This document shows, piece by piece, positions 17,645-20,902 of a stretch of 64,000 nt of DNA. Below the pieces are notes generated by a model. That model did no database searches. It worked only from the letters and a program-made list of their open reading frames with translations, and was not told the origin of the DNA. The stretch spans positions 1 to 64,000 of the forward strand of contig JAIOYV010000005.1 in assembly GCA_021740905.1 (NCBI GenBank), in the 5' to 3' direction. This DNA is from Bacteroidales bacterium (GTDB lineage: Bacteria > Bacteroidota > Bacteroidia > Bacteroidales > M50B96). Within the stretch, counting starts at the first letter, position 1; each line of letters opens with the position of its first letter. The position numbers were made by a program, and so were the translations under genes.

Positions 17645-19591
17645 ATGATTGAAATTACTTTTCCTGACAAACAAGTGAAGGAATTCCCGGAAGGAGTTTC
17701 CGGTATAGATATAGCGAGGAGCATCTCGAACCAACTGGCCAAAGAAATTGTTGCCACATCGGTGAACGAAGAATTGTGGGATGCCAATAGGCCGATCAAC
17801 CAGAATGCACGTATTAAATTGCATACATTCGACAACGACGAAGGGAAACATGCTTTTTGGCACTCTTCGGCACACCTTATGGCCCAGGCAATCGAGCATC
17901 TTTATCCCGGAGTGAAATTGTGGGTTGGGCCAGCTATCGAAAACGGCTTTTACTATGATATAGATCTTCCTGAAGGTCAGGTAATCTCGGACAACGATTT
18001 CAAGAAAATCGAAGACAAGATGCTTGAACTGGCCAGGCTGAAAAATGACTATGTCAGAAAAGAAATGTCGAAGGATGAAGCTTTGGCTTACTATAATAAT
18101 AAAGGCGATGAATATAAAGTAGACCTGATTGGTGGTTTAGAAGACGGTACCATTACTTTTTATTCGCAAGGCGATTTTACCGATTTATGCCGTGGTCCTC
18201 ACTTGCCAAACACCGGATTAATAAAGGCTGTTAAAGTTTTATCGGTTGCTGGTGCTTACTGGAAAGGCGACGAGACCCAAAAACAATTGACCCGTTTGTA
18301 CGGTATTTCATTCCCCAAGCAAAAATTTTTGGAAGAATACCTTGTCCTGCTTGAAGAGGCAAAAAAGCGGGACCATCGAAAAATAGGGAAAGAACTTGAG
18401 CTTTTCACTTTCTCGCAAAAGGTTGGGATGGGCTTGCCATTGTGGTTGCCAAAAGGAGCCCAGTTGCGCGAACGTCTTGAAAATTTCCTAAAAAAAGTAC
18501 AGAAAAAATATGGCTATGAGCCTGTAATTACTCCTCACATTGGGTTGAAGGAATTATATGTTACTTCGGGCCATTATGCAAAGTACGGGAAGGATTCGTT
18601 CCAGCCTATAAACACGCCAGCCGAAGGGGAAGAGTTTTTGCTGAAACCCATGAACTGTCCGCACCATTGCGAAATTTACAGATCAAAGCCACATTCCTAT
18701 CGTGACCTGCCAGTTCGTTATGCTGAATTTGGCACCGTTTACCGGTACGAGCAACATGGCGAATTGCATGGTTTGACCCGTGTTCGTGGGTTTACGCAAG
18801 ACGATGCCCATATTTTCTGCCGTCCCGATCAGTTGAAGGAAGAGTTTATCAAGGTGATTGATATTGTTTTGTACATTTTTAAAACCCTCGATTTTAAAGA
18901 TTTCACTACACAGGTTTCTCTCCGCGATAAAGAGAATCCTGACAAGTATATCGGAAGCGATGAAAATTGGGAGAAAGCCGAACAGGCAATCCTTGAAGCA
19001 GTTAAAGAAAAGGGGTTGGATTATTTGATAGAAACTGGCGAGGCTGCCTTTTACGGGCCAAAACTCGATTTCATGGTGAAAGATGCCTTGGGACGAAAAT
19101 GGCAGTTGGGGACTATCCAGGTCGACTACAATCTGCCTGAGCGGTTTGAGCTAGAATACATGGGCACTGATGGGCAAAAACACAGGCCGGTTATGATCCA
19201 TCGCGCACCTTTTGGTTCGATGGAACGTTTTGTTGCCGTATTAATAGAGCACACAGCAGGGAAGTTTCCTTTGTGGTTGACCCCCGAACAGGCTGTGTTA
19301 ATCCCTGTTAGCGAAAAGTATAACGACTATGCAAAAAATGTTTTAGATATTCTAAATAATTCCGATATTCGCACCCTGATTGATGAGCGGAACGAAAAGG
19401 TAGGCAGGAAGATACGCGACAACGAATTGATGCGGATCCCATATCTGCTAATTGTAGGCGAAAAAGAAGTTGAAAGTCAAACAATTTCGGTACGCAAGCA
19501 AGGAGAAGGAGACGTGGGTACTTTTAGTGCAAGCGAATTTATTGAGTTTATTAACAAGGAGGTGGAGAGCCAACTTGACGAAATAAAATAA
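17645..19591 (+). CDS. thrS: Threonyl-tRNA synthetase
   Basis: 648 residues, full length. An N-terminal TGS domain (1-62), the editing domain with [13 protein letters not shown] (HxxxH), a further Cys/His pair of the editing site around CRGPHLP, then the class II catalytic core with [11 protein letters not shown], the zinc-binding Cys in KPMNCPHHC, motif 2 [17 protein letters not shown] and motif 3 [13 protein letters not shown]-terminal anticodon-binding domain (about 535-645) follows. It charges tRNA-Thr with threonine in the cytoplasm. infC begins about 30 bp downstream, the usual thrS-infC-rpmI-rplT order. Confidence 0.98.
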
Positions 19592-19608
19592 AATTTATAA
19601 TTAAATTT

Positions 19609-19614
19609 AGGAGG
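19609..19614 (+). promoter_or_regulatory. Full Shine-Dalgarno of infC, decides an AUA start
   Basis: AGGAGG at 19609-19614 is a complete anti-16S match, 8 nt before ATA at 19623. Genes in this window otherwise lack such sites, as is usual in Bacteroidota. Its place supports initiation at the ATA rather than at the first ATG 26 codons later. Confidence 0.85.
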
Positions 19615-19622
19615 ATAAAAAA

Positions 19623-20180
19623 ATAGCTGGCTTTAGAGGAAATAGGGGACGGGTCGAAAGAAGAAACCCGCATCGCATCAATAATTATATCAATTCGCCA
19701 ATGGTCCGGTTGGTGGGCGAAAATATAGAAAACCCCGATGTATATTCAATAAAGGATGCCATTAAAATGGCTGATGATTTGGACCTGGATCTTGTGGAGA
19801 TTTCTCCCAGTGCAGACCCGCCTGTTTGTAGGATCACCGATTATCAAAAGTTTCTTTATCAACAGAAAAAGAAACAAAAAGAGTTGAAGGCCAAGGCCAC
19901 TAAAATTATAGTGAAAGAAATCAGGTTCGGTCCACAAACCGACGAACATGATTTTAATTTCAAATTGAAACACGCCATTAAGTTTTTAGAAGATGGGGCT
20001 AAAGTAAAGGCTTTCGTATTCTTTAAGGGACGTTCGATTTTGTTTAAAGAGCAAGGCGAAATTTTATTGCTTCGCTTTGCGCAGGAATTGGAAGAAGTGG
20101 GAAAAGTAGAACAATTGCCCAAATTGGAAGGAAAACGGATGACCATGTTCATATCGCCAAAAGCAATTGCCAAAAAATAA
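19623..20180 (+). CDS. infC: Translation initiation factor IF-3 with apparent AUA start codon
   Basis: The frame has its first ATG at 19701, but the coding sequence clearly continues upstream: [19 protein letters not shown] followed by [18 protein letters not shown], the conserved IF-3 N-terminus (the arginine-rich stretch and R-I-N). The upstream limit is a TAG at 19608. The only fitting initiator is ATA at 19623, 8 nt after AGGAGG. This gives 185 residues, the normal length for IF-3 (N-domain to about 85, linker, C-domain to the end with [11 protein letters not shown] and the usual MFISPK tail). E. coli infC starts at AUU so that IF-3 represses its own translation; AUA here would do the same. 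ATT/ATC codons nearby do not fit the spacing. Confidence 0.9.
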
Positions 20181-20205
20181 TAATTTTTTTAGATACAGAA
20201 ACCAG

Positions 20206-20252
20206 AGTGCATTAGCCGAAAGATCCTGGACGACCGGGACGCTAAGTACTCA
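20206..20252 (+). ncRNA. Structured leader element upstream of rpmI (copy 1 of 2)
   Basis: A nested hairpin: GAGTG (20206-20210) pairs with TACTC (20248-20252), then TTAGC with GCTAA (20213-20217 and 20242-20246), a 7-nt/1-nt asymmetric internal loop with CGAAAGA, and a 6-bp top stem TCCTGG with CCGGGA closed by ACGA. It ends 15 nt before the rpmI start. The element is almost identical to the copy before rplT, and the outer stem differs in sequence while still pairing. The likely role is translational or transcriptional control by L20 or L35. Confidence 0.75.
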
Positions 20253-20267
20253 CAAATAAATGTAATT

Positions 20268-20465
20268 ATGCCAAAAATGAAAACGAATTCCGGTGCTAAG
20301 AAGCGCTTTACAATTACCGGAAGTGGAAAAATCAAAAGGAAACACGCTTTTAAAAGCCACATCCTGACCAAGAAATCCACAAAGAGAAAAAGAAACCTGG
20401 GTTATTTTACAACAATTCACAAAGCCGATGAGAACAACATCAAGCTTTGTTTGGCCATGAAATAA
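20268..20465 (+). CDS. rpmI: 50S ribosomal protein L35
   Basis: 65 residues, normal length, basic throughout. [14 protein letters not shown] is the hallmark N-terminus and [22 protein letters not shown] matches the family. Part of infC-rpmI-rplT. A structured RNA element ends 15 nt before the ATG, where a regulator bound to it could block the ribosome. Confidence 0.97.
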
Positions 20466-20493
20466 TCGAAAGGAAGTAAAAAAAGTTTTAACA

Positions 20494-20541
20494 GAGTGAC
20501 TTAGCCGAAAGATCCTGGACGAACCGGGACGCTAAACATTC
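20494..20541 (+). ncRNA. Structured leader element upstream of rplT (copy 2 of 2)
   Basis: Same fold as the copy before rpmI: GAGTG (20494-20498) with CATTC (20537-20541), TTAGC with GCTAA (20501-20505 and 20531-20535), the CGAAAGA internal loop and the TCCTGG/CCGGGA top stem, here with a 5-nt loop ACGAA. It ends 16 nt before the rplT ATG. CATTC replaces TACTC of copy 1 and still pairs with GAGTG, so the pairing, not only the sequence, is conserved. Confidence 0.75.
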
Positions 20542-20557
20542 AAAAAAAAGTAAAATT

Positions 20558-20902
20558 ATGCCAAGATCAAAAAATGCTGTTGCATCAAAGCAAAGAAGGA
20601 AAAAGGTACTGGATCAAACCAAAGGTAACTTTGGTGCCAGGAAAAATGTTTACACAGTAGCTAAAAACACGCTCGAAAAAGGCTTGCAATATGCCTATCG
20701 CGACCGTCGTACCAAGAAAAGGAATTTCCGTGCACTGTGGATCCAGCGGATAAACGCAGGGGCGCGCATACATGGATTGTCCTACTCACAATTTATGGGT
20801 AAGATACATGCCAAGGGTATCGAACTTAACAGGAAAAGCCTTGCAGATATGGCCATGAACCACCCCGATGCTTTTGCAGCTATTGTGAAAGCTCTGAAGT
20901 AG
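20558..20902 (+). CDS. rplT: 50S ribosomal protein L20
   Basis: 114 residues, full length and basic. N-terminal [35 protein letters not shown], then [26 protein letters not shown], the conserved L20 core that binds 23S rRNA. Last gene of infC-rpmI-rplT. In other bacteria L20 represses this operon by binding a structured site in the mRNA; the twin elements upstream of rpmI and rplT fit such a role. A strong terminator follows at 20925. Confidence 0.98.

Follow-up and report, generated by a model that had tools for sequence, protein, structure and literature searches.

Two hairpins of nearly the same sequence precede rpmI and rplT, which follow thrS and infC in a tandem gene cluster (identities from Pfam) within the 64,000-nucleotide stretch of Bacteroidales DNA analysed here, the window. 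One stands before the gene for L35 and the other before the gene for L20. A sequence-only reading made earlier had proposed a duplicated L20 operator, on the background that in other phyla L20 represses this operon through 23S-like sites on the mRNA, of which E. coli uses two; that background agrees with the account of a 2024 review, in which the infC-rpmI-rplT operon of both E. coli and B. subtilis is repressed by L20 through rRNA mimicry (PMC10931766). At a probability of roughly 0.78, element A (before rpmI) and element B (before rplT) are taken here as putative L20-binding translational operators, ancestral before rplT and duplicated before rpmI in the family to which the window belongs.

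Table. Positions of the genes and of the putative operator features in the window
Feature	Position	Strand	Description	Basis
thrS	17645..19591	+	Threonyl-tRNA synthetase, first gene of the cluster	Pfam PF00587, PF07973, PF03129, PF02824
infC	19623..20180	+	Translation initiation factor IF-3, 5' of rpmI; proposed ATA start	Pfam PF05198, PF00707; start proposed via the reading frame
Element A	20205..20251	+	Putative L20-leader-type RNA hairpin 5' of rpmI, family-specific copy, 47 nt	Sequence, folding, genome pattern search, model R1, family counterparts
Element A, first core GC	20215..20216	+	Pairs with GC 20241-20242; proposed counterpart of G997-C998 of 23S
Element A, AAG and one-nucleotide bulge A	20220..20223	+	G pairs with C 20240; proposed counterpart of AA1009-1010, G1011 and bulged U1012 of 23S
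rpmI	20268..20465	+	Ribosomal protein L35, 65 aa	Pfam PF01632, E 7.4e-28
Element B	20494..20541	+	Putative L20-leader-type RNA hairpin 5' of rplT, class-wide, proposed ancestral copy, 48 nt	Sequence, folding, relatives' leaders, covariation
Element B, first core GC	20504..20505	+	Pairs with GC 20531-20532
Element B, AAG and one-nucleotide bulge A	20509..20512	+	G pairs with C 20530
rplT	20558..20902	+	Ribosomal protein L20, 114 aa	Pfam PF00453, E 3.1e-42

The twin nested hairpins of that reading are indeed present, with the same stems. The outer stem is formed by GAGTG with TACTC in one element and with CATTC in the other, the pairing being kept while the letters differ, as had been noted, and the two elements have in common the inner stem TTAGC/GCTAA and the hairpin TCCTGG/CCGGGA. 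The spacing to the start codon, given as 15-16 nt, is the same for both, although it is 16 nt in each case and not 15 (20252-20267 for A, 20542-20557 for B, counted from the last base of the outer stem to the ATG), with both elements ending at -17 relative to the start codon. Likewise, the stretch 20206-20541 assigned to the pair is right at its end and one nucleotide late at its start. The elements are direct repeats, 289-290 nt apart, and when the forward strand of the whole 6.54-Mb genome was searched with the core pattern, these were the only two places found; there were no matches on the reverse strand, nor with the pattern written backwards as a control.

Both elements are predicted to fold stably, A at -20.1 kcal/mol (z -4.4) and B at -15.0 kcal/mol (z -3.4), with 0/200 shuffles equally stable in either case. 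With 42-50 nt of extra flank the folds are weaker, A having a z of -3.2 (0/200) and B of -1.7 (13/200 shuffles as stable), and because of this drop in B the folding energy is not taken as the main argument on its own. No Rfam 15 family, RF00558 (L20_leader) included, reaches its gathering score in the window or in any of 12 related loci, and a search of 20100-20600 at E values up to 10 returned only two chance matches to unrelated families. The element had not been recognised as a known leader family from its letters, and Rfam places it neither in such a family nor with an unrelated known motif.

L20 was sought in 60 genomes, including the one from which the window comes, and found in 57; the DNA 5' of rplT was read in these and in added named records, which were the best 80 of 591 relatives. 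The rplT leaders have a recurrent layout. Inside an outer stem, GC is separated by a loop of 2-10 nt from AAG, after which come a single unpaired nucleotide, a hairpin and then C and GC; the closing strand of the outer stem is followed by an A-rich spacer and the ATG. The core can be written GC-N(2-10)-AAG-N-helix-C-GC. A strict parser (score 9) finds this motif in 75/136 rplT leaders versus 2/134 rpmI rows and 0/680 mononucleotide-shuffled leaders, where 75/136 is a lower bound because the parser misses many leaders whose motif can plainly be seen by eye. At the looser score of 8, 84/136 rplT leaders pass, as do 2/680 shuffles. Left out of the counts were a locus with a second L20 gene (L060, from both sets), a cut locus (L111, from the rplT set) and loci without a usable rpmI (from the rpmI set). 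In 74 of the 75 parsed leaders the core lies 20-29 nt from the AUG.

Since the parser favours a one-nucleotide bulge and demands pairs, anchors that are blind to pairing were also used, and these occur in 124/136 rplT leaders versus 14/134 rpmI rows. When the helix that follows AAG (P2) is started after one unpaired nucleotide, 84.7% of its first four cells are paired across the 124 leaders, with all four paired in 81/124, versus 48.0% and 41.5% at offsets of 0 and 2 in the same leaders. Redealing the 3' strands among leaders 1000 times gave a mean of 50.7% and a maximum of 56.0%. Among the 75 leaders parsed at score 9, all have the one-nucleotide bulge, which the parser score prefers, the bulged nucleotide being A in 40, U in 31 and C in 4. 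The core pairs are GC/GC in 66 of these and GU/AC in 9, the second pair being U-A in part of the class. AAG, which both parser and anchors require, was seen directly 5' of rplT in nearly every leader read.

In 84/124 anchored rplT leaders an AACC precedes the outer stem at no more than 22 nt from the core, and has no visible partner within the element; in the window AAACC (20199-20203) and UUAAC (20488-20492) lie just 5' of the outer stems of A and B.

The pairing itself is conserved among relatives, with many compensatory changes, so that the structure assumed in the sequence-only reading is upheld. In an alignment (A4) of 21 of the 23 rplT leaders with a loop of 4 nt and a hairpin part 16-18 nt long, chosen without regard to pairing and omitting L110 (near-identical to L105) and L031, 91.8% of cells are paired versus 68.2% in shuffled alignments (0/500), and partners slid out of register reach at most 45.2%. 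The covariation score is 0.631 versus 0.200 shuffled (0/500). Of five covariation measures, two are less extreme on this alignment, the number of pairs changing on both sides being reached by 12/500 shuffles and the number of pair types by 43/500. Given no structure, RNAalifold recovers from A4 the two helices and some of the outer stem; of the 13 pairs that it predicts, 11 have changes on both sides. The G-C pair next to the bulge and the outer core G-C pair are invariant (21/21), while the inner core pair changes from C-G to U-A, on both sides, in 3/21. Pairing is thus kept through compensatory change, as is expected of a structured cis-regulatory RNA. An alignment made with a covariance model (A3) gave no pairs in RNAalifold and an outer stem score of only 62.3%, the latter because its MAFFT seed misplaced the AAG and the outer stem.

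The core resembles the place on 23S rRNA to which L20 binds. The C-terminal domain of L20 binds the junction of helices 40 and 41 (PMC6962249), and the rRNA-like features common to published L20 leaders are described as two G-C pairs in a row together with an AA dimer (PMC7247131); both are found in the element, the second pair varying in part of the class. In our reading, the AA dimer meant in that description is AA1009-1010, A1000-A1001 being the other AA in the junction. It had been suggested that the element be compared with the L20 site of the same genome, but the 23S of that genome was sought and not found; in the three 23S sequences that were compared, from E. coli, Parabacteroides and Sphingobacterium, the order and geometry match. 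With the Rfam structure mapped onto the E. coli 23S and numbers counted from the locus, A996-G997-C998 is paired with G1157-C1158-U1159, followed by UAA, a GGU/ACC helix, CCC, A1008 and AA1009-1010, then by the pair G1011-C1150, the unpaired U1012 and a 6-bp helix (1013-1018/1144-1149). The mRNA element follows the same order: AGC/GCU, which is GGC/GCC in many flavobacterial loci, comes first, then AA, and then a G-C pair with a single unpaired nucleotide and a helix after it. The parts of the 23S junction absent from it include UAA/GAA and the GGU/ACC helix. In Parabacteroides and Sphingobacterium the letters AGCU, AA and U1012 are identical, and the pair 1011-1150 is A-U, unlike the G-C of the mRNA.

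A pattern scan recovers the L20 site in all three 23S sequences. When the 6-bp helix and a third pair are required there are 7 placements in E. coli (0-6 in 20 shuffles), 4 in Parabacteroides and 1 in Sphingobacterium (the latter two as stretches with flanks or cut), of which the L20 site is one in each case. With several placements in 23S the pattern alone is not specific, and the likeness counts chiefly because this junction is a known binding site of L20.

These features bear on the possibility that the hairpins are constitutive elements for mRNA stability or processing, or enhance translation by holding the A-rich start open, with no feedback by L20. The elements do lie between genes of one cluster, and intergenic hairpins in gene clusters can protect mRNA or guide cleavage; the bases immediately 5' of the AUG are also mostly unpaired in the predicted folds of both A and B, which would suit an enhancer. 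Such a hairpin, however, would need neither a bulge fixed at one nucleotide (75/75 parsed leaders, and 84.7% versus 41-48% paired at other offsets) nor an invariant G-C pair beside it (21/21), nor would it need any likeness to the L20 site on 23S, and this explanation is therefore considered improbable, if the least so of the three alternatives weighed.

While an element before rplT is widespread, the copy before rpmI was found only in the family of the window, in which it is present in all three genomes that have rpmI (G000, from which the window comes, G001 and G002); in the fourth genome, 60% complete, no L20 was found. It is in no other rpmI leader that was read, and both of the rpmI rows that reach score 9 belong to this family. 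What appeared to be a third rpmI-side match, in L128, is an artefact, as the start of rpmI lies past the end of the locus and the row is 3543 nt long instead of 95; this row is counted among the 134 but not among the 14 that are anchored. Eleven other rpmI anchors were set aside, in which 0-3 of the 4 pairs are formed and several of which, by eye, cross the end of infC. The twin arrangement is therefore not the general Bacteroidota solution that had been suggested; in the rest of the class, the one element seen was that on the rplT side.

A covariance model (R1) seeded with 23 rplT-side copies, and with no rpmI-side copy, was run on 88 loci and gave 46 matches at E values up to 0.1, including its own 23 seeds. 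Of these, 44 are 5' of rplT and 2 are 5' of rpmI, namely element A of the window (36.9 bits, E 8.9e-5) and that of G002 (31.7 bits, E 0.0012). The copy in G001 is not among the matches at this threshold. The P2 hairpins of the three A copies differ in sequence yet pair from the base, with 6 pairs each in G000 and G001 and 5 in G002, and by eye the outer stem in G001 has been rewritten in the same way, so that on these comparisons copy A looks to be under selection. Identity between A and B within a genome is 84% in G000, 64% in G001 and 74% in G002, and between A copies it is 66% in all three comparisons. That A is closest to its own B in two of the three genomes is the pattern expected of repeated duplication or gene conversion, although with sequences this short it is only a hint. 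Given its wide spread, B would be the older copy.

The presence of a copy 5' of rpmI might suggest that the operator answers to L35, or to some other protein, and not to L20. Outside the window's family, however, only rplT was seen with the element, as in the parser counts given above (75/136 against 2/134); the core matches the junction bound by L20 (PMC6962249); and it is L20 that is described as the repressor of the operon in E. coli and B. subtilis (PMC10931766). A ligand other than L20 is accordingly thought unlikely, slightly more so than a constitutive hairpin.

With L20 as the putative ligand and repression of translation as its predicted effect, the operator would work as follows. L20 made in excess over 23S rRNA would bind each element, its RNA being a compact copy of the helix 40/41 junction, with a short helix of stacked GC/GC, an internal loop in the 5' strand ending in AA, a G-C pair, a single bulge and a second helix. 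The bound and stiffened hairpin, 16 nt from the AUG and beside the A-rich stretch that ribosomes would use in these bacteria without Shine-Dalgarno sequences, would hinder loading of the 30S subunit and so lower translation. In the window's family, where the element is also before rpmI, L35 and L20 would each be repressed directly, without coupling. In Flavobacterium johnsoniae, adenines at -12 and -13 are described as promoting initiation, which is also favoured by low structure between -20 and +20, where the mRNA tends to be unpaired (PMC6847099). The end of each element, at -17, is at the edge of this region.

Position also bears on whether control might be by transcription attenuation inside the operon, as in B. 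subtilis, where L20 acts in this way 5' of infC (PMC10931766). Against that precedent, each element in the window ends 16 nt from the AUG and is followed directly on its 3' side by A-rich sequence with no run of T, and the distance from core to AUG is narrow in all but one of the parsed leaders, which fits action on the start site; attenuation is the least probable of the alternatives and is given very little credence beside translational control.

The spread of the element in the phylum was followed with a second model (R2), searched in 99 genomes including the window's own under strict filters by which weak members are lost. At E values up to 0.5 there are 15 matches in 13 genomes, of which 8 are directly 5' of rplT, 1 is element A and 6 are elsewhere. 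The six best (E 1.5e-7 to 0.0063) are all directly 5' of rplT, which is reached in 8/24 genomes of the same class, the window's included. None of the matches elsewhere, in G141, G142, G086, G151 and G091 and the second in G120 (E 0.0106 to 0.32), precedes rplT, and they are regarded as chance.

Because these filters lose weak members, rplT leaders were read directly in 76 of the 96 other genomes with L20, being all 23 of the same class and 53/73 of other classes. Anchors are present in 17/23 leaders of the same class versus 10/53 of other classes, and in 9/23 versus 0/53 the anchored leader also forms three or more pairs in each of the two stems. By eye, 19/23 leaders of the same class have the motif, three of them as variants (L154, L164, L167). 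In two of the variants, L164 and L167 of family f62, the core GC/GC seems by eye to have become GG with CC or UC, while AAG, bulge and hairpin are kept. Placement before the L20 gene is therefore consistent, save for the four leaders of 23 from which the motif is absent by eye, which are all of one family, f59 (L165, L166, L168 and L169). It is likewise absent by eye before rplT in Prevotella (L138) and in two Bacteroidales loci (L091, L125), where the gap between rpmI and rplT is 37, 9 and 9 nt, respectively. Family f59 is probably Bacteroidaceae-like, a name suggested by the Prevotella locus. On the leaders read, the element belongs to the class Bacteroidia and would have been lost from, or never present in, a Bacteroidaceae-like branch. 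That one family appears by eye to be without it indicates that the element is dispensable.

The second L20 gene, in a relative (L060, G054:C182), is 48%-identical, has no element and has AGGAG before its start; it is possibly foreign DNA or assembly contamination. Viral contigs were searched for the L20 protein as well, and no relative was found.

The rplT-side element has probably been recorded before, at least in part, as an automated survey has already listed HMP2_39, a 49-bp candidate found mostly in Alistipes, directly 5' of L20, and suggested there that it may be the leader of a ribosomal protein (Fremin and Bhatt 2021, PMC8040213). In the one Alistipes locus available here (L090) the element is 49 nt from stem to stem and lies 5' of rplT. 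Going by length, genus and place, the two are probably the same. Matches of the models to L090 prove nothing in this respect, as L090 is in the seed of both. As described, HMP2_39 is an unnamed automated prediction, and that description does not mention a class-wide family, a comparison with 23S or a copy before rpmI. Beyond HMP2_39 no L20 leader of Bacteroidota was found in the open-licence literature, outside which most subscription papers lie. In a survey from 2013, Firmicutes and Thermotogales are the groups to which the L20 leader family is assigned (PMC3766115), and Table 1 of Eckert and Weinberg (2020, PMC7247131) lists an L20 leader under Deltaproteobacteria and leaders of other kinds under Bacteroidia.

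Compared with these systems, A and B share with the Firmicutes leader (RF00558) a leader in the infC-rpmI-rplT operon, L20 as (here putative) ligand and the likeness to the 23S site reported for B. subtilis, but the B. subtilis leader lies 5' of infC and acts by transcription attenuation (PMC10931766). With the rpmI operator of E. coli they would share the logic of translational repression and two L20 sites, and they do share likeness to 23S, the two sites there being a long-range pseudoknot and an irregular hairpin (PMC10931766). In E. coli, however, both sites serve the rpmI start and rplT is controlled by coupling (PMC6962249), whereas in the window each start codon has a complete site of its own, and elsewhere in the class a site is seen only before rplT. 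The deltaproteobacterial L20 leader also combines two successive G-C pairs with an AA dimer, on a scaffold of its own, but is of another lineage and by its description has a helix of several pairs between these two parts, while in the present element GC/GC is followed by AAG within 2-10 nt (PMC7247131). The best explanation is that the element adds a new scaffold to the L20 leaders already known as a class, and that its layout of one operator per gene is novel.

Taken together, and with somewhat better than even confidence, the L20 operator of Bacteroidia would be a minimal, self-contained replica of the helix 40/41 junction that was copied in the window's family so that L35 and L20 each have a complete site, while Bacteroidaceae-like lineages dropped the operator and shortened the gap between rpmI and rplT. 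Gene conversion or repeated duplication may account for the likeness of copies within one genome. If this is true, the loss of the operator leaves the control of L20 in the Bacteroidaceae-like lineages to coupling or to something else. The element would fill a gap, this being a phylum without Shine-Dalgarno starts for which no worked-out L20 leader was found in the open-licence literature searched, and as a further RNA scaffold for one conserved protein it would be of use in studying how RNA-protein recognition is re-invented. There would also be a natural experiment in these genomes, with one operator (at rplT) in much of the class, two in the window's family and none seen in Bacteroidaceae-like genomes. 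Annotation would benefit, since no Rfam 15 model matches the element.

In the same cluster, infC appears from its reading frame to be initiated at an ATA codon. Autocontrol by IF-3 elsewhere is through rare start codons. A Shine-Dalgarno-like GGAGG lies 5' of this ATA (window positions 19605-19630), which is odd for a phylum reputedly without such sequences (PMC6847099). In a rough alignment of 125 infC starts, GGAGG or AGGAG is present within 25 nt of the start in 38, and ATAGCA is common around the start among 30 of the 125.
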